Shown here in pieces: positions 3,889-39,450 of a stretch of 39,450 nucleotides of DNA. The notes below the pieces were generated by a model. That model was not told the origin of the DNA. It did not search any database and saw nothing but the letters and a program-made list of their open reading frames with translations. Positions within the stretch are counted from its first letter, which is position 1, and each line of letters starts with the position of its first letter. Origin of the DNA: an uncultured Oscillospiraceae bacterium (GTDB taxonomy: Bacteria > Bacillota > Clostridia > Oscillospirales > Oscillospiraceae); the NCBI GenBank assembly GCA_947629955.1, contig CANRFT010000018.1:1-39450 (forward strand), read 5' to 3'. The translations under genes and the position numbers were made by a program.

Positions 3889-4302
3889 TCACATCACCAT
3901 GAGCAGGGTCCCCGCGCCGATGAGGATACAGCCGACGAGAGATTTCGGGGTCACCTTTTCACGCAGGAACACAAAGGCCAGCACCAGCGTGATCACAACG
4001 CTCAGCTTGTCGATGGGCACGACTTTTGACGCCTCGCCCATCTGCAGCGCCTTGTAATAGCACAGCCAGGAGGCGCCGGTGGCCAGGCCGGACAGGATCA
4101 GGAAGATCCAGCTCTTTCTGCTGATATTGGCGAGGCCGCTCTGCGCGTCCGTCAGGAACACCATGCCCCAGGCCAGCAGCACGACCACCACCGTCCTGAT
4201 GGCGGTGGCCAGATTGGAGTTTACGCCGTCGATGCCGACCTTCGCCAGGATCGAGGTGAGGGCCGCAAAGACCGCGGACAACAGCGCAAGGATCAACCAC
4301 AT
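3889..4302 (-). CDS. EamA-family (drug/metabolite transporter) half-size membrane protein
   Basis: The protein has 137 residues and about five hydrophobic helices, one EamA repeat instead of the two found in full-length DMT permeases. Visible landmarks are the N-terminal helix WLILALLSAVFAALTSIL, the short motif SWLCYYKALQMGEASKVVPIDKLS before the last helices, and the end LREKVTPKSLVGCILIGAGTLLM, all usual for EamA repeats. Single-repeat members act as homo- or heterodimers; substrate is unknown. GGAGGAAG lies just before the ATG. It has its own promoter and no partner gene next to it. The family call is confident; the function is open. Confidence 0.85.
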   Translation of the reverse strand: MWLILALLSAVFAALTSILAKVGIDGVNSNLATAIRTVVVVLLAWGMVFLTDAQSGLANISRKSWIFLILSGLATGASWLCYYKALQMGEASKVVPIDKLSVVITLVLAFVFLREKVTPKSLVGCILIGAGTLLMVM

Positions 4303-32719: not shown

Positions 32720-33976
32720 TTACGCGGGGTGATCCTCCAGCCAGCGGCGGATCATATCGAGAGCGTGGTGGGCGGCCATGGTGCGCACCCAGTACCGACC
32801 CTCCACCGCCCTCGCCAGGTGGAGTTCTTTTACCTGGGTGCCCTCCGGGGCGGCCAGGGCCGCATAGACCAGCCCCACCGGGTTGCCCCGGTCGTCGCTG
32901 TCCGGGCCGGCCACGCCGGTGACGGACACGGCCAGATCGCAGTTCAGCACCCGGCGGGCGCCCTCGGCCATCTGCCTCGCCACATCGGCGCAAACCGCGC
33001 CCTGCTCGTCCAGCAATGTCTGAGATACCCCCAGCACGCCGGCCTTGACCTCATTGGTGTAGCTGATGATCCCGCCCTTGAGGATGGCGGAGGAGCCGGG
33101 CAGATCGGTCATCCGCTTGGCGATGAGGCCGCCGGTACAGCTCTCCGCCGTGCCCATGGTGAGGCCCCGGGCCTTGAGGCCCTCCAGCACCACCTGCTCC
33201 AGGCCGGCCACGTCCGCGCCGTAGATCCTGCGGCCCAGCAGGGCCCGGACCTCCGCCTCCACCGGGGCGATGAGGGCGGCGGCCTGTTCTGCGGTTTCCG
33301 CCTTGGCGGTGATGCGCAGCTCTACCTCTCCCTCCTTGGCATAGGGGGCCAGAGTGGGGTTGGTCAGCGCGTTCATCCGCTCCCGGAGGAGGGACTCCAC
33401 CTCCGACTCACCCATGCCAAATACCCGGAGCGTCCGGGAGCGGATGACTCCCTCGCTCAGAGCGGCCAGCCAGGGCATGGCCCGCTCCCGGAACATGGGC
33501 AGGCACTCTCTGGGCGGGCCGGGGAGCATGACCACATAGTTGTCCCCCGCCTGAAAGGCGCAGCCGGGGGCGGTGCCCCAGGCGTTGTCCAGGACGGCGC
33601 AGCCCTCCGGCAGATACGCCTGCTGGAGGTTGTTGTCCGTCATCTGCCTGCCCATCCGGGCAAAGTACGACCTGATGGTCTCGGCGCACTCGGGGTGGAA
33701 GACCAGCTTTTTGCCGAAGGCCTCCGCCAGAATCTGCTTGGTGAGGTCGTCACAGGTGGGGCCCAGGCCGCCGGTGGTGATGATCACGTCGGCCCGGCCT
33801 CTTGCCACCTCTACCGCCGCCCTCAGCCGCTCCGGATTGTCCCCCACCACCGAGTGGTAGCGGACGTTCAGCCCCAGGGCGGTCAGCTCCCGGCTCAGGT
33901 CCCGGGCGTCGGTATTCAGGATACTGCCCAGCAGCAGCTCGGTGCCCACGCACAGAAGTTCAACGGAATGGCTCAT
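32720..33976 (-). CDS. cinA: CinA, competence/damage-inducible protein with NMN amidohydrolase domain
   Basis: The 418-residue protein has two domains. The N-terminal MoCF-like domain (about 1-250) shows ELLCVGTELLLGSILNTDARDLS, DVIITTGGLGPTCDDLT and VVMLPGPPRE. The C-terminal CinA/PncC domain (about 255-418) shows the nucleophile region GTAESCTGGLIAKRMTDLPG, ILKGGIISYTNEVKAGVLGV and VSVTGVAGPDSDD. It deamidates NMN in pyridine nucleotide recycling and is linked to transformation and DNA repair (recA often lies near, not here). I chose the ATG at 33976 (GAGGGA upstream); 48 in-frame residues before it are unlike the family. The divergent tRNA-Arg promoter lies about 40 bases upstream of it. 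Confidence 0.96.
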   Translation of the reverse strand: MSHSVELLCVGTELLLGSILNTDARDLSRELTALGLNVRYHSVVGDNPERLRAAVEVARGRADVIITTGGLGPTCDDLTKQILAEAFGKKLVFHPECAETIRSYFARMGRQMTDNNLQQAYLPEGCAVLDNAWGTAPGCAFQAGDNYVVMLPGPPRECLPMFRERAMPWLAALSEGVIRSRTLRVFGMGESEVESLLRERMNALTNPTLAPYAKEGEVELRITAKAETAEQAAALIAPVEAEVRALLGRRIYGADVAGLEQVVLEGLKARGLTMGTAESCTGGLIAKRMTDLPGSSAILKGGIISYTNEVKAGVLGVSQTLLDEQGAVCADVARQMAEGARRVLNCDLAVSVTGVAGPDSDDRGNPVGLVYAALAAPEGTQVKELHLARAVEGRYWVRTMAAHHALDMIRRWLEDHPA

Positions 33977-34016: not shown

Positions 34017-34045
34017 TTGACAGCGGGCGGGAAATTGAGTAAAAT
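34017..34045 (+). promoter_or_regulatory. Promoter of the tRNA-Arg region
   Basis: TTGACA (34017-34022), 17 bases, TAAAAT (34040-34045). Transcription would begin near 34052 and run through the two repeat units into the intact tRNA. It is divergent from cinA. Confidence 0.82.
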
Positions 34046-34065
34046 AACAAGGCGGCTACCTCCAA

Positions 34066-34275
34066 AGCAGGCGGAGAAGCAATCGCCTTTTCCCCCGAAA
34101 GCGGAAGGTCCGCAGTTCAACTTACCTCATGTGCCCTCGTAGCTCAGCAGGATAGAGCGTCCGCCTCCTAAGCAGACGGAGAAGCAATCGCCTTTTTCCT
34201 GAAAAGCGGAAGGCATACAGTACAACTTAACTCATACGCGCCTGTAGCTCAGTAGGATAGAGCGACCGCCTCCTA
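34066..34275 (+). repeat. Two 105-base tandem units ending at the tRNA anticodon loop
   Basis: Unit 1 is 34066-34170 and unit 2 is 34171-34275, about 83% identical without gaps by hand count (18 differences). Each starts AGCA(G/A) followed by a CGGAGAAGCAATCGCC segment and a GCGGAAGG segment. Each ends with the 5' half of a tRNA-Arg up to CCGCCTCCTA, i.e. exactly inside the anticodon loop. The sequence after unit 2 completes the intact tRNA; before unit 1 stands the related CCTCCAAAGC. Confidence 0.88.
34133..34176 (+). pseudogene. tRNA-Arg(CCT) 5' half
   Basis: GCCCTCG (acceptor 5' strand), TA, GCTC...GAGC (D arm), and an anticodon arm with loop CTCCTAA and one C/A mismatch are present. After the anticodon stem there is no variable loop, T arm or acceptor 3' strand, so it cannot form a tRNA. 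Confidence 0.85.
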
Positions 34276-34314
34276 AGCGGTAGGTCGGAGGTTCGAATCC
34301 TCTCAGGCGTGCCA
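34238..34314 (+). tRNA. tRNA-Arg(CCT)
   Basis: The 77-base gene reads AGG codons. Acceptor GCGCCTG (34238-34244) pairs with CAGGCGT (34304-34310), with a G-T pair at position 1-72. The D arm is GCTC/GAGC, the anticodon stem ACCGC/GCGGT around loop CTCCTAA (anticodon CCT at 34272-34274), the T arm GGAGG-TTCGAAT-CCTCT, and the discriminator G is followed by encoded CCA. The two upstream repeat units and the mobile-element genes downstream mark it as an integration target. Confidence 0.95.
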
Positions 34315-34321
34315 CAAAAAG

Positions 34322-34376
34322 CGCCGATTTTTGCCTCTGTTTTCGTCAGAAAGCACACAAAAATCGGTGTTTTTTT
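34322..34376 (+). terminator. Terminator after the tRNA
   Basis: CCGATTTTTG (34324-34333) pairs with CAAAAATCGG (34358-34367) around a 24-base loop, followed by a run of seven T after a G. It starts about 10 bases after the tRNA CCA. Confidence 0.75.
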
Positions 34377-34731
34377 GTGTAGTTGCACAAAATTGAACAA
34401 TCTACATTTGAAAAAGCGAATGAAATAGTTACAATTTTGATTAGCAAGGCAAACGTGAAGAAGCTATCGCCTATTGCAGCCCATGTCATCAGTTCAACAA
34501 TACTCTGAACAGCCAAAAAAGTCAATAGACGGTTTCTTGCTAATGAAATTAGCAAGCGAGCCCCGATTTTTGCTCCGAAAAACGGCCTCCAGCTAATTTT
34601 TGATTTTGAACTCAAAAAAATCTGCTAATTTCAAAAGCGGTCCGTCACTGTGCAAAAAAACTCGGCATCGCATAGCCGTACATAGCCGGTCTGGAAACAG
34701 ACCGGCTTATTCTATTTAAGGAGGATCAGAG
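34377..34731. other. AT-rich stretch without a convincing gene; repeated ATTAGC/GCTAAT motifs
   Basis: GC content falls sharply here compared with both sides. The hexamer ATTAGC or its complement occurs five times (34440, 34539, 34548, 34592, 34624), two of them in a perfect palindrome CTTGCTAAT-GAA-ATTAGCAAG (34536-34556). CCGATTTTTGC recurs at 34324 and 34563. A 41-codon frame from a TTG at 34383 (ending VISSTIL) reads like protein but has no ribosome site, and could be a gene remnant. I see no other gene. Confidence 0.55.
34684..34707 (+). other. Hairpin in the leader of the acidic-protein gene
   Basis: Perfect ten-pair stem (34684-34693 with 34698-34707) and GAAA tetraloop, followed by TATTCTATTT and then the ribosome site AAGGAGG. 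It may be a weak terminator or attenuator. Confidence 0.55.
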
Positions 34732-35151
34732 ATGGAAGTGAAGATCATCAATATCACGTTGAGGCCGAAAGGTCAGAAGCCGGAGCAGAAACACCGGCTG
34801 GAGGAAAAGGTGCGCGAGGTGGCGTACAACTGCGCGGAGGAAGTCTGGTGGGACCCCAGCCTGGACGCCGCAAGAGCCCTCCAGAGGGCCATGGAGACGC
34901 TGGCCGACCACGATGAGTATGAGAGCGCCATGGACATCCTCACCGCCTTGTACGACATCGTGGACCTGGATATGCCCTGTGAACTGGCGGCTATCCAGAA
35001 ACGGCCTGACCTCCTGGAACTGTTCATGGATGAGTTTCTGACAGAGTCGGACGAGATTTTGGACGACTTCGCCGCTGGCGGGGATGACCTCGCAGACGAG
35101 GACGAGGACAGTTCTGAAGGGTACTTCGAGATGGACGACCTAAGCGACTGA
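34732..35151 (+). CDS. Small acidic protein of unknown function, element-associated
   Basis: The 139-residue protein has a clear AAGGAGG site before the ATG. The first half is mixed and likely helical (RLEEKVREVAYNCAEEVWWDPSLDAARALQRAMETLADHDEYESAMDILTALYDIVDLDMPCELA). The last 45 residues are very acidic (EFLTESDEILDDFAAGGDDLADEDEDSSEGYFEMDDLSD). No catalytic, membrane or DNA-binding motif is visible. It lies 88 bases upstream of parA on the same strand, so it probably belongs to the same element. Such acidic tails occur in DNA-mimic or regulatory proteins, but I do not assign a function. Confidence 0.75.
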   Translation: MEVKIINITLRPKGQKPEQKHRLEEKVREVAYNCAEEVWWDPSLDAARALQRAMETLADHDEYESAMDILTALYDIVDLDMPCELAAIQKRPDLLELFMDEFLTESDEILDDFAAGGDDLADEDEDSSEGYFEMDDLSD

Positions 35152-35239: not shown

Positions 35240-36073
35240 ATGGACACCAGATGTAAGGTCATCGCCGTTGCCAATCAGAAGGGCGGCGTGGGCAAGACCA
35301 CCACCACACTCAACCTGGGCGTGGGCCTCGCTCAGAAGGGCAAGAAGGTCCTTCTGGTGGACGCAGACCCCCAGGGTAGCCTCTCCGTCAGCATGGGCGT
35401 AAAACAGCCGGACGAGCTTGATACCACCCTCGCGGACCTGATGAAGATGGTGGTGAATGACGAGCCTTTCAGCCCGGACAAAGGCATTATCAGAGGCATT
35501 GAGGGCGTGGACCTGATGCCGGGGAACATTGACCTGGCAGGGCTTGAAACGCAGCTCTTGAACGTAATGAGCCGCGAGTACGTCATGCGAAACTGGCTTG
35601 GACCGGTCAAAAGAGAGTACAGCTATGACTATATCCTCATTGACTGTATGCCGTCAGTCAACGTACTCACCGTCAACGCTCTGGCCGCCGCCAACAGCGT
35701 CATCATCCCCTGTCAAGCAAGCTATCTCTCTACAAAAGGTCTGAATCAGCTCATGGGTTCCATTGTAAAGGTGCGAAGGACTATCAATCCCAAGCTGAGA
35801 ATCGACGGCATCCTGCTGACGATGGTGGACAATCGGACCAACAACGCCAAAAACATCATCACCTCATTGCGGGAAATTGGCGGCGGCCTGCGGGTGCTGG
35901 ACACGGAGATACCCTTTTCTGTCCGGGCGGCAGAGTGCAGCGTGGAGGGCAAAAGCATCTTTGCCCACGATGCCAAAGGCAAGGTTGCGGCGGCGTATGA
36001 CGCTCTTGTGGGGGAGGTGATGAGCATTGAGCAAAGGAACCGCGATAGACCTGGGGCTGAGAGAGGCGCTTGA
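35240..36073 (+). CDS. parA: ParA-family partition ATPase
   Basis: ParA ATPases move or position DNA together with ParB. The 277-residue chain carries the deviant Walker A motif VANQKGGVGKTTTTLNLG near residues 10-27, Walker A' VLLVDADPQGSLS, Walker B YDYILIDCMPSVN and ANSVIIPCQASYLSTKGL. It has no N-terminal helix-turn-helix, so it is of the chromosomal/ICE-like type. A GGAAGGAGG site lies before the ATG. It overlaps parB by 47 bases in another frame. Neighbours (tRNA, acidic protein, parB) place it on a mobile element rather than the host par locus. The call is secure as a family. Confidence 0.94.
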   Translation: MDTRCKVIAVANQKGGVGKTTTTLNLGVGLAQKGKKVLLVDADPQGSLSVSMGVKQPDELDTTLADLMKMVVNDEPFSPDKGIIRGIEGVDLMPGNIDLAGLETQLLNVMSREYVMRNWLGPVKREYSYDYILIDCMPSVNVLTVNALAAANSVIIPCQASYLSTKGLNQLMGSIVKVRRTINPKLRIDGILLTMVDNRTNNAKNIITSLREIGGGLRVLDTEIPFSVRAAECSVEGKSIFAHDAKGKVAAAYDALVGEVMSIEQRNRDRPGAERGA

Positions 36074-36971
36074 CGACCTGTTCTCCACCCAAGAGGACCG
36101 GGACAACGCCAAGCGGACATTTCTCCGGGACATTCCTGTGGGCGAGATCGAGGACTTCCCAGACCACCCCTTCAAGGTCCGTATGGACGAGGACATGGAG
36201 AACCTTGTGGAGAGCGTGAAAGTACGGGGCGTTCTCAGCCCTGTGCTGGTGCGGCCTATGCCGGACGGCTCCTATCAGATGGTATCTGGCCACCGGCGAA
36301 AGCGGGCCAGCGAACTGGCTGGGCTTGAAACCGTCCCCTGCATTGTCCGTGAACTGACCGACGATGAAGCCACCATCCTCATGGTAGACTCCAACCTTCA
36401 GCGTGAGCGGGTGCTGCCCTCAGAACGGGCTTTTGCCTATAAGATGAAGTTGGATGCCCTCAACAGGCAAGGAGTACGCACAGATTTAACTTCGTGCCCA
36501 GTGGTCACAAAGTTGAATAGTGCAGATGAAGTGGGCAAGGCCCAAGGGGAGAGCGCAAGGCAAGTTTTTCGCTATATCCGCCTCACCTACCTCATCCAGC
36601 CCCTACTTGACCTTGTAGACGAGGACAGGATAGCCTTCCGGCCTGCCGTGGAGCTGTCCTACCTCACCCAGAGCGAACAGCAGGCCCTATACGAATCCAT
36701 TTCCTACGAGGACGCCACCCCGTCGCTTGCCCAGGCTATCAAAATGAAGGAGTTTTCCAAAGACGGGAGGCTGAATGAAGATGTGATACTGTCCATCATG
36801 TCAGAGGAAAAGCCCAACCAGCGGGAGAAATACAGCTTCAAGGCGGACAGGCTGAAACAGTATATCCCCATGGGCCTTTCTCCACAGCAGAGGGAGGATT
36901 ATGTTGTGAAAGCGTTGGACCATTACAAGCGGTTTCGTGAGCGCCAGAGGGCAATGAACGACGCAAGATGA
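36027..36971 (+). CDS. parB: ParB-family DNA-binding partition protein
   Basis: This 314-residue protein carries the ParB N-terminal domain: FLRDIPVGEIEDFPDHPFKVRMDEDMENLVESVKVRGVLSPVLVRPM, then VSGHRRKRASELAG, where the CTP-binding box has GHRR in place of GERR, and IVRELTDDEATILMVDSNLQRE. A helix-turn-helix region follows (GESARQVFRYIRLTYL), with FRPAVELSYLTQSEQQAL. The start is a TTG at 36027 with GGAGGTGA six bases upstream, inside the end of parA; no better ATG is in frame. Such GHRR-type ParB proteins are usual on integrative elements of Firmicutes. It is translated with parA. Confidence 0.92.
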   Translation: MSKGTAIDLGLREALDDLFSTQEDRDNAKRTFLRDIPVGEIEDFPDHPFKVRMDEDMENLVESVKVRGVLSPVLVRPMPDGSYQMVSGHRRKRASELAGLETVPCIVRELTDDEATILMVDSNLQRERVLPSERAFAYKMKLDALNRQGVRTDLTSCPVVTKLNSADEVGKAQGESARQVFRYIRLTYLIQPLLDLVDEDRIAFRPAVELSYLTQSEQQALYESISYEDATPSLAQAIKMKEFSKDGRLNEDVILSIMSEEKPNQREKYSFKADRLKQYIPMGLSPQQREDYVVKALDHYKRFRERQRAMNDAR

Positions 36972-37228: not shown

Positions 37229-39450
37229 ATGAACAAGAAATTCAAAGGCCGCGCGCATCGCATGATGGCGATGCTGCTGGCTCTCGTCATGATCTGTTCC
37301 CTGGTGACGACCACGGCGTTTGCCTCTCAGGAGGATAACTACCATGACCCCGCTGACCGCTGGCTGAACGCCGCCAACCGCACCAATGAGTTGGATGCCA
37401 ACGCCACCGTCACCCATGAGACATTCACCTGTGCTGTGTGCGGCGGTGCCCGGTCCTTTATGGTATGGAGGACCCCGGAGTATACCAGAGACGGCCAGAC
37501 CGCTATGCTCCGCAACGTCCGGTACTCTGACGGCACGATGATCGACGGCAAGAGCAAGGGAACCATCCTGGATGGCACCCCCGGCATGGATGCCACTTAC
37601 ACCGGCTATCACTGGACCAAGGCCAACTGTGAAACCTGCGGCACCATGAACTCCAACATGGGCCTCACCGACTACTCCTGCGGCAAGAACGTCTACTGGC
37701 TCTATGACTGCGCCGCCGAGTTCACTGAGGAACTGGACCCCGTGACCACCTACGAGTATGCGGATGACACCTATCACCGTGTCATTACGACTACCGGCAC
37801 CTACTGCGAGTTCTGCTTCGGCACCCGTAAGACGACCACGACCACCCTGGAGCGTCACAATATCGAGACTGACATCCTGCCCCAGCCTGCCAATGGCCGT
37901 TTCGCCACGGTGGATCACTGCACGGTCTGTGACTACAACCACTATGACTATACCGCGGCCAAGGCCGTTATCGCGGACTACTACGGCGTGGTGGACGGTA
38001 AGCCCCACACCATCACCGTGACCGACCTCTCCGAGAGCGGTGTGTCCGTCAGCATCCGTTACGGCAACAGCGCCGACGCCTGCACCCTGACCTCTGCTCC
38101 TAACTACACCGACGAAGGCCAGTATACCGTCTATTACGAGATTTCTTACACCTTCAAGGGTAAGACCATGACCGAGGACGGCGTGGCCTATGTCTGGCTC
38201 CGGGATGAGAGCATGAAGGACGATGGCAACGGCAATTTCACCTGCGGCTGTGGCTGTGGCGACCCGGACTGCGGCTGCCAGGACAAGGACTGCCATGGCG
38301 ACTGCGAGAAGGACAAAGGCTGCGGCGAGAACCACAAGTTTGTCCTTCTGGACAGCGTGGAACCCGGTTGCCTGACCCTGGGCTATGACCGTTATCTTTG
38401 CACCGAGTGTGGCCGAATCGAAAAGCGGGACTATGAGGCGGCTCTGGGTCATGCCTTCCAGTCCGTGCTTATCCGCGAGGCCACCTGTGAGACGGACGGC
38501 AAGCTCCTGGAGATCTGCTCCCGCTGCGGCCAGATGAAAACCACCGCCACCCCCAAGGGTGAGCATAAGTACAGCACCCACAACGTGGCCGCCACCTGCA
38601 CCTCTCCCGGTTATACTGTCAAGGAGTGTTCCGTTTGCGGCGACCGCCACATCACCAATATCACCTCCGCCCTGCCCCACAACTACAAGGCCCACGTCAC
38701 TCCCGCTACCTGCGAGACTGGCGGCAAGACCGTCCACCTGTGCGACGGCTGCGGCAGTTCCTTCGTGACCGACTACACCGCCGCTCTTGGCCATCAGTGG
38801 GATGAGGGCACCACCATCAGCAGCGGCACCTGCGTCGGCTCCGGCGTTATCGAGTACAAGTGCCAGCGTTGCGGCGCGACCCGTCTGGAGGGCGACCCCG
38901 CCAAGGGCCACACCCCCGGCGCTCCTGCCACCTGCACCGAACCCCAGCTCTGCGAGAAGTGCGGCGCTGTGATTGCTCCGGCCCTGGGCCACAATTACAC
39001 CGATGAGGTCACGCCTCCCACCTGCACCGAGATGGGCTATACCACCCACACTTGCGAAAACTGCGGCGACACCTACAAGGACGAGTACACGAACCCCACC
39101 GGCCACAAGGAGAGCGACTGGATCGTGGATAAGGAGCCTACCGTGGACAGTGAGGGTGAGCGCCACAAGGAGTGCAAGGACTGCGGCGAGAAGCTGGAGA
39201 GCGAGTCCATCCCCCGTCTGAACGACCAGGACATCACCGACAACCACGGCGAGGCCGAGGTGGGCGGCTATCTGGTCATCGTCACTGACACCGATACCGA
39301 GGCCCCGGTCATGGGCGCTGTTGTCACGCTGAAAAAGGACAACACCCTGGGTATTCGTTTGCCGGATGGCCGTCTGCTGGACTACGCTGACCAGACCACC
39401 GTTACCGTCCTCATCAAGAAGGACAAGAGCGCCGTCCCCGGCGTGGACAT
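37229..39450 (+). CDS. Large secreted Cys-rich repeat protein (3' end outside window)
   Basis: The frame is open for 740 codons to the window edge. It starts with a Sec signal (MNKKFKGRAHRMMAMLLALVM, cleavage after TTAFA). Residues about 33-338 hold scattered CxxC pairs (CAVCGG, CETCGT, CEFCF, CTVCDY). A dense cysteine cluster (CGCGCGDPDCGCQDKDC, 339-365) follows. Residues about 368-665 form eight modules of about 38 residues of the type ATCTxxGYTxxxCxxCGD...ALGH, each with a C-x(8-11)-CxxC pattern and a closing Gly-His. From about 677 a beta-rich domain (GGYLVIVTDTDTEAPVMGAVVTLKKDN) resembles a CnaB/SpaA-like fold. GGAGG lies 12 bases before the ATG. The modules look like zinc- or disulfide-knuckled surface repeats. 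Function is unknown. Confidence 0.85.
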   Translation, partial: MNKKFKGRAHRMMAMLLALVMICSLVTTTAFASQEDNYHDPADRWLNAANRTNELDANATVTHETFTCAVCGGARSFMVWRTPEYTRDGQTAMLRNVRYSDGTMIDGKSKGTILDGTPGMDATYTGYHWTKANCETCGTMNSNMGLTDYSCGKNVYWLYDCAAEFTEELDPVTTYEYADDTYHRVITTTGTYCEFCFGTRKTTTTTLERHNIETDILPQPANGRFATVDHCTVCDYNHYDYTAAKAVIADYYGVVDGKPHTITVTDLSESGVSVSIRYGNSADACTLTSAPNYTDEGQYTVYYEISYTFKGKTMTEDGVAYVWLRDESMKDDGNGNFTCGCGCGDPDCGCQDKDCHGDCEKDKGCGENHKFVLLDSVEPGCLTLGYDRYLCTECGRIEKRDYEAALGHAFQSVLIREATCETDGKLLEICSRCGQMKTTATPKGEHKYSTHNVAATCTSPGYTVKECSVCGDRHITNITSALPHNYKAHVTPATCETGGKTVHLCDGCGSSFVTDYTAALGHQWDEGTTISSGTCVGSGVIEYKCQRCGATRLEGDPAKGHTPGAPATCTEPQLCEKCGAVIAPALGHNYTDEVTPPTCTEMGYTTHTCENCGDTYKDEYTNPTGHKESDWIVDKEPTVDSEGERHKECKDCGEKLESESIPRLNDQDITDNHGEAEVGGYLVIVTDTDTEAPVMGAVVTLKKDNTLGIRLPDGRLLDYADQTTVTVLIKKDKSAVPGVD

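Follow-up and report, generated by a model that had tools for sequence, protein, structure and literature searches.

We analysed a locus at which a mobile element, here called alpha, begins within an array of broken transfer RNA (tRNA) genes in an uncultured Oscillospiraceae bacterium. The window, the whole stretch of DNA analysed, is the complete contig C18 of the source genome (39450 bases). Two intact tRNA-Arg(CCT) genes recur below: tRNA-A in the window, and tRNA-B on contig C23 of the same genome and in the sister genome G285. The features of the window were as follows.

32720-33976, minus strand: 418-aa frame of a cinA-like gene (a name we presume from its sequence rather than from a family search), the chromosomal neighbour that marks the locus; tblastn placed its homologue beside tRNA-Arg(CCT) in relatives.
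34017-34045, plus strand: sigma-70-type promoter TTGACA-17-TAAAAT, 11 of 12 consensus positions, read as the host tRNA promoter.
34059-34068, plus strand: degenerate first core CCTCCAAAGC, the oldest 5' half being missing or worn; a homologous worn core, CTCCTAAAC, lies in G285.
34066-34170, plus strand: unit 1, by alignment an alpha'-type element spacer and the 5' half of tRNA-B.
34133-34171, plus strand: stranded tRNA-B 5' half (GCCCTCG...CTCCTAA), identical to the 5' half of intact tRNA-B on C23 and in G285.
34165-34172, plus strand: core CTCCTAAG, the left end (left attachment site, attL) of the window's element, with a variable host side and a constant element side in four genomes.
34173-34237, plus strand: element-borne spacer alpha, from the crossover site to the tRNA gene, near-identical in G014, G336 and G326.
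34238-34314, plus strand: tRNA-A, intact element-borne tRNA-Arg(CCT) called by ARAGORN, with the same tRNA in G014 and G336.
34316-34375, plus strand: terminator-like hairpin followed by a T run (inverted repeat 34316-34333 / 34358-34375; hairpin in the RNA fold).
34440-34629, no strand assigned: five ATTAGC/GCTAAT motifs, candidate arm-type integrase sites from motif counts, with putative binding.
34732-35151, plus strand: element open reading frame of 139 aa, no family match.
35240-36073, plus strand: ParA-like ATPase of the element (PF13614, E 8.5e-56).
36027-36971, plus strand: ParB-like protein of the element (PF02195, E 1.8e-21).
37229-39450, plus strand: long open frame that the contig end truncates; no match in Pfam.

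The tRNA-Arg(CCT) gene at 34238-34314 was the sole tRNA that ARAGORN found in the window, and two 105-bp direct-repeat units preceded it. In the phase given by a preliminary description of this DNA (34066-34170 and 34171-34275) the units were identical at 87 of 105 positions; the repeat tool set the phase at 34052-34156 and 34157-34261, with 80% identity and a period of 105 bp. At 2000 random window positions the period-105 identity averaged 32.6 of 105, with a maximum of 87 that equals the value of the array repeat itself, on which the sampling could land. The period-105 similarity was solid from CCTCCAAAGC (34059-34068) and ended directly after CTCCTAAGC (34270-34278). The ends of a tandem repeat mark the limits of similarity, so the position of both ends at the anticodon-loop core is informative. 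The stranded 5' half at 34133-34171 had the acceptor strand GCCCTCG, against GCGCCTG in the intact tRNA, and was identical to the 5' half of the intact tRNA-Arg(CCT) in G285. The window array holds two 5' halves and a worn core. The preliminary description had named two similar 105-base units ahead of tRNA-Arg(CCT), unit boundaries in the anticodon loop, and a first copy reduced to a 5' half with a different acceptor strand, and all three were borne out. A terminator scan with loops restricted to 3-8 nt did not list the hairpin at 34316-34375. An RNA fold of the precursor (z -3.8), in which the stranded half and spacer form a structure of their own, was set aside because the 5' halves vary between hosts.

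The left end of the element was fixed at the core. In an alignment of the window with G014 (another genus), G336 and L098 (taken as G326 from its contig number and sequence), the sequence to the right of CTCCTAAG was near-constant, and to the left stood three forms of 5' half, one of them common to the window and G336. G014 matched the window at 97% over 1743 nt, up to the end of the G014 contig. The element DNA after the core consisted of the 65-nt spacer and then the whole tRNA, with no direct restoring of the missing tRNA part. Across the elements, the tRNA-Arg(CCT) that each carries lay 40-90 nt inside one element end.

The cinA gene adjoined tRNA-Arg(CCT) in seven genomes including that of the window, that is, in six more of the genus by tblastn, and a promoter of the same form and place was found at the cinA locus of relatives. 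Four of these relatives (G324, G321, G323 and G325) had only the promoter and a single intact tRNA at the same place beside cinA, without an array, so that the related genomes lacking the element to which the preliminary description had looked do exist. None of the four had a GCTAAT/ATTAGC motif in the 700 nt downstream of the tRNA; the counts per 700 nt were 5 in the window, 3 at C23 and 0 at the four empty sites and G285. The sister genome G285 (contig C3, L042 about 970-1108) had a worn core and the relic of a spacer ahead of intact tRNA-B, and its downstream DNA was free of element motifs. This looks like a scar, where an element may have been lost and its tRNA kept. G326 had three complete 5' halves, then another spacer and the start of a further half, then the contig end. 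Its alpha spacer and 5' half were followed by an alpha' spacer in place of the 3' half of tRNA-A, as expected if alpha' integrated after alpha.

We examined the right ends of related elements by homology to the right arm on C23. The right-arm homologues in G337 (twice), G231 and G270 ended at CTCCTAAGC, and directly after it came a 3' half that had no 5' half; in G329 the aligned right arm ended some 50 nt early and the core and 3' half came after. The core that the preliminary description expected at the right end was therefore present in relatives, while the right end of the window's own element lies beyond 39450. The shared stretch was CTCCTAAG(C), about 8 bp (8-9 bp), and the right-arm bases before it were unlike a tRNA 5' half. 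A search for the 3'-half pattern in 28 chosen genomes produced 41 matches, spread over 25 of them. The classifier marked 13 of the 36 distinct matches as stranded; one of these (L144, G180) was intact by eye, leaving 12 in 11 genomes, and with that of G125 included the stranded 3' halves behind a core numbered 13 in 12 genomes.

Stranded 5' and 3' halves of the same genome were then paired, with G-U pairs allowed, in the genomes that had both types of half (G270 and G238 were without a 5' side). Of 11 genomes, 9 gave full pairing of the acceptor and anticodon stems (12 of 12 positions). For G331, G329, G308, G071, G096 and G125 the stranded 5' half paired better than the 5' half of the intact tRNA; in G231, G337 and G216 the halves are alike, so pairing cannot discriminate. 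Excluding G154 and G253, all 9 same-genome pairs reached 12 of 12, compared with 9 of 72 cross-genome pairs. ARAGORN called tRNA-Arg(cct) on 10 of 11 rejoined half pairs and gave none for G154; the halves gave a tRNA on rejoining only with each other.

A whole element was present on a single contig of G125, where 33 kb lay between a stranded 5' half (GTCCATA, core 1980) and its 3' half (TATGGAC, core 34957), the positions being counted within the stretch taken from that contig. This genome was taken as the model in place of G154, whose halves do not match. The G125 element contained two beta units, an intact tRNA, an integrase, a MobA/VirD2-like relaxase (PF03432), a TraG-like ATPase and a type IV coupling protein (PF02534). 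Beyond the 3' half were further GCTAAT-type motifs, as expected of the arm of an older element, and farther upstream another 5' half stood behind a promoter. G053 had six consecutive cores up to and including the intact tRNA.

The integrases of C23, G154 and G125 matched PF00589, and those of C23, G154, G125 and G231 had 38-86% identity to that of C23. Residues R174, K243, H318, R321, H345 and Y355, which we take to be those usually held catalytic, were invariant across the four sequences, and the G125 integrase also gave a weak arm-binding domain match. Among loci whose available downstream DNA reached 1000 nt or more, an integrase homologue was present there at 12 of 19 arrays, against 3 of 37 loci with a single half (p 2.5e-5); too short a downstream stretch removed 7 loci of each type from the count. 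The set was partly non-random, many of its loci having come from similarity searches, and several singles (such as L074, L190 and L201) have a core missed by the strict half detector. An integrase gene, which the preliminary description had expected to accompany such a locus, was thus found as a tyrosine-integrase family adjoining arrays or right ends in relatives and on C23. The element in the window carries ParA/ParB, and the contig ends 5.1 kb inside it.

We consider it very probable that the array is the left attachment site of successive integrations of tyrosine-integrase elements into the anticodon loop of tRNA-Arg(CCT). The observations behind this are the junction sequences with the left end fixed at the core, the empty sites, the stranded 3' halves and the matching of halves, the whole element between matching halves in G125, and the integrase neighbours. 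The attachment site of the free element (attP) would read right arm, core CTCCTAAG, spacer, complete tRNA-Arg(CCT), terminator, left arm. An integrase acting through the putative arm sites would cross this core with the resident anticodon loop, so that the promoter and the resident 5' half would stay on the left, followed by the spacer and intact tRNA of the element, and the resident 3' half would be moved behind the right arm at the far end. The resident tRNA would be destroyed, and the element tRNA, now behind the host promoter, would take over for a host that presumably needs it, by read-through transcription and probable release by RNase P. A later element would repeat the event on the new tRNA and leave one more stranded 5' half. 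In the window, the alpha element with tRNA-A would have inserted in tRNA-B. The recombinase acting repeatedly in the anticodon loop that the preliminary description proposed is thus supported by the empty sites, right ends and integrase neighbours. It had each event leaving an element-derived flank and a new 5' half; the element brings a complete tRNA with its spacer rather than a 5' half alone.

Several observations weigh against this interpretation. The window contig stops at 39450, and the right end and integrase of alpha were not found. Two genomes, G154 (8/12) and G253 (4/12, with an intact 5' half only), failed the pairing test, which we read as nesting or decay. Seven of 19 arrays had no integrase homologue in the available downstream DNA, and one 124-nt spacer, in G125, has a 9-of-12 promoter-like site. 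The only other 3' half of the source genome sits in intact tRNA-B on C23, and the right arm on C23 leads to a further spacer unit and a 5' half with no bare 3' half, an arrangement that would need a composite or tandem event.

Plain tandem duplication of the tRNA gene, with later decay of the 3' halves of upstream copies, would account for the likeness of the two units, for the T-arm-like relic of a 3' half in beta-type spacers and for the two adjacent near-identical beta units in G125. However, spacers of a single type start at one and the same base in different genera, although the 5' halves ahead of them differ. The array pattern also did not occur with the TCT anticodon in the 300 genomes sampled, and integrase neighbours are enriched. 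The stranded 3' halves far off behind right arms, which match stranded 5' halves, largely refute duplication, and we regard it as very unlikely. Even less probable is canonical tRNA-targeting integration, in which a 3' half is the sole tRNA part that the element brings and serves to rebuild the host tRNA. This is usual for tRNA-targeting elements according to the part of PMC10865867 used here, and an intact tRNA does lie at the left end beside element DNA, but a complete 5' half is already present on the element side, 31 nt ahead of the next core, with the unpaired host 5' half in front of it, and a shared core of 8-9 bp is too short to rebuild a tRNA. The least probable of the three is a 105-bp unit that moves on its own, as a small cassette hopping between anticodon loops; cores do flank the units and unit lengths are confined (81-115 nt core to core in one set of arrays, up to 124 nt in another), whereas the newest unit is continuous with a long element end common to genomes (97% over 1743 nt).

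The second intact tRNA-Arg(CCT) of the source genome is tRNA-B on contig C23. Its 5' half was identical to the stranded half in the window, a unit-1-like spacer preceded it, and C23:3364-3487 matched window 34055-34179 at 92.8%. To its left were a stretch with GCTAAT motifs, the core CTCCTAAGC and, at a distance of 2.1 kb, a tyrosine integrase. The 3'-half pattern search found two places only in the source genome, the window tRNA and tRNA-B. C23 could be the right junction of alpha, if the element had an extra unit, or part of another element. As a circular element C23 was rejected, having no overlap between its ends. As a chromosomal right flank it gained no match, the G285 proteins downstream of the tRNA having none in the five pieces of the source genome searched; the C23 downstream stretch matched G285 in the left-arm region adjoining the tRNA and otherwise gave just two short weak matches. 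With the C23 integrase considered as that of alpha, a DNA comparison found no copy in G014 or G336; G014 covers just 629 bases of the later alpha tested, so the absence there carries little weight. A run of similar lipoprotein-like genes begins beside tRNA-B at about 3902 (G000:C23), and C23:7875-11437 had an 88% match to the preceding stretch. The source genome also has tRNA-Arg(TCT), which might read AGG, with a bearing on how essential tRNA-Arg(CCT) is.

Of 26 arrays, 10 had an 11-of-12 promoter match in the 100 nt ahead of the first half detected; the window promoter at 34017-34045 (11/12) falls outside this 100-nt limit. None of 30 spacers, which are shorter, reached a 9/12 match, the 124-nt spacer of G125 being the exception. 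Expression of the element tRNA would therefore come from the host promoter, through read-through transcription. An extension to which we give a little less than even weight is that the element tRNA is silent until integration and has the host tRNA promoter as its only one. Survival would then depend on the newest element, excision would return the job to the tRNA below, and the array would be a last-in-first-out record with the oldest event at the left and the newest at the right, the order being read from position alone. Beta-type spacers (G053, G064, G125, G213, G271, G606 and, as L067, G326) open with a T-arm-like stretch (GCGGCAG..TTCGA.TCC) directly after the core. This stretch is likely a relic of a 3' half before the complete tRNA, and beta-type spacers are possibly intermediate between tRNA-restoring and tRNA-carrying elements. 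Because they look like worn 3' halves between the canonical and whole-tRNA designs, the evolution of tRNA-targeting integration becomes testable.

The exact array pattern was present in 27 of 300 sampled family genomes and 22 of 106 genera, in a search that by construction finds units only ahead of a further 5' half and no free cassettes. The same 300 genomes gave no reversed array pattern and no version with the TCT anticodon (0/300). In a phylum sample the pattern occurred in 3 of 398 genomes, namely that of the window and two others of the same order. IMG/VR gave one matching contig, L180 (IMGVR_UViG_2853978868_000001), with core, spacer and complete tRNA-Arg(CCT) at 3984-4120. This contig is phage-like, with endolysin-like and ParA genes on either side, the ParA downstream as in the window, and its layout is that expected of attP, so we regard it as attP-like. 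The alpha spacer was found in 0 IMG/VR contigs. Phage-record searches gave 127 and 650 matching records, none covering 80% of the query, and the matches listed were mostly tRNA genes. An Enterococcus match (L242) had no CTCC[TA]AAG on the strand scanned. The tRNA-Arg(CCT) gene varied widely: 28 genus sequences had a mean pairwise identity of 0.823 and fell into 9 acceptor types, whereas five other tRNAs had mean pairwise identities of 0.953-1.0 in 6 genomes, a sample that differs from the tRNA-Arg(CCT) set. The tRNA-Arg(CCT) gene itself may thus be horizontally replaced.

The crossover lies in the anticodon loop as for canonical anticodon-loop integrases, whose elements, as reportedly set out by Williams in 2002, restore the 3' part of the target tRNA; the elements here bring the whole tRNA. 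The closest likeness is the tRNA-dependent lysogeny of the actinobacteriophages Fionnbharth, LeBron and Gaia (Guerrero-Bustamante and Hatfull 2024, PMC10865867). In the part of that paper used here, a tyrosine integrase recombines at an 8-17 bp core in a host tRNA gene and no tRNA is rebuilt at the junction. The present elements likewise have a tyrosine integrase, a core of about 8 bp, no rebuilt tRNA and a tRNA of their own of the same isotype. In the same part, the Fionnbharth tRNA gene overlaps gene 37, lies in a map region separate from attP-int and is driven by a tested promoter of its own; in contrast, the tRNA here lies 40-90 nt from the core and, after integration, behind the host promoter. 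The spacers here, unlike in the actinobacteriophages (PMC10865867), are mostly without promoter-like sites, some carriers are conjugative, and there are serial arrays, of which the part of PMC10865867 used here describes none. The Lj965 prophage of Lactobacillus johnsonii, as far as the same part goes, does not rebuild its target tRNA and encodes the cognate tRNA, and is similar to the elements here in both respects. In the Dehalococcoides ssrA genomic islands, according to the part of PMC3146451 used, a single RNA gene is the target of integration again and again, and a row of repeats results; serial integration is alike in the two systems, but here 5' halves accumulate upstream and the gene is replaced.

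The G125 element carries a relaxase and a coupling protein, the window element carries ParA/ParB, and a single contig (L180) is phage-like; the elements share the principle of tRNA-dependent lysogeny and are not lysogenic in the strict sense. What appears new is the attachment-site-linked, mostly promoterless tRNA, the conjugative elements and the serial arrays; among the papers that searches of the open-licence PMC literature listed, none was recognised as describing arrays of stranded tRNA 5' halves. The locus would extend tRNA-dependent integration beyond actinobacteriophages to conjugative elements of gut Firmicutes-type bacteria, with integration itself predicted to switch the replacement tRNA on and the arrays possibly giving a dated order of element arrivals at a single locus. 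Farther inside the window's element, the frame at 37229-39450 looks secreted and is rich in cysteine pairs.
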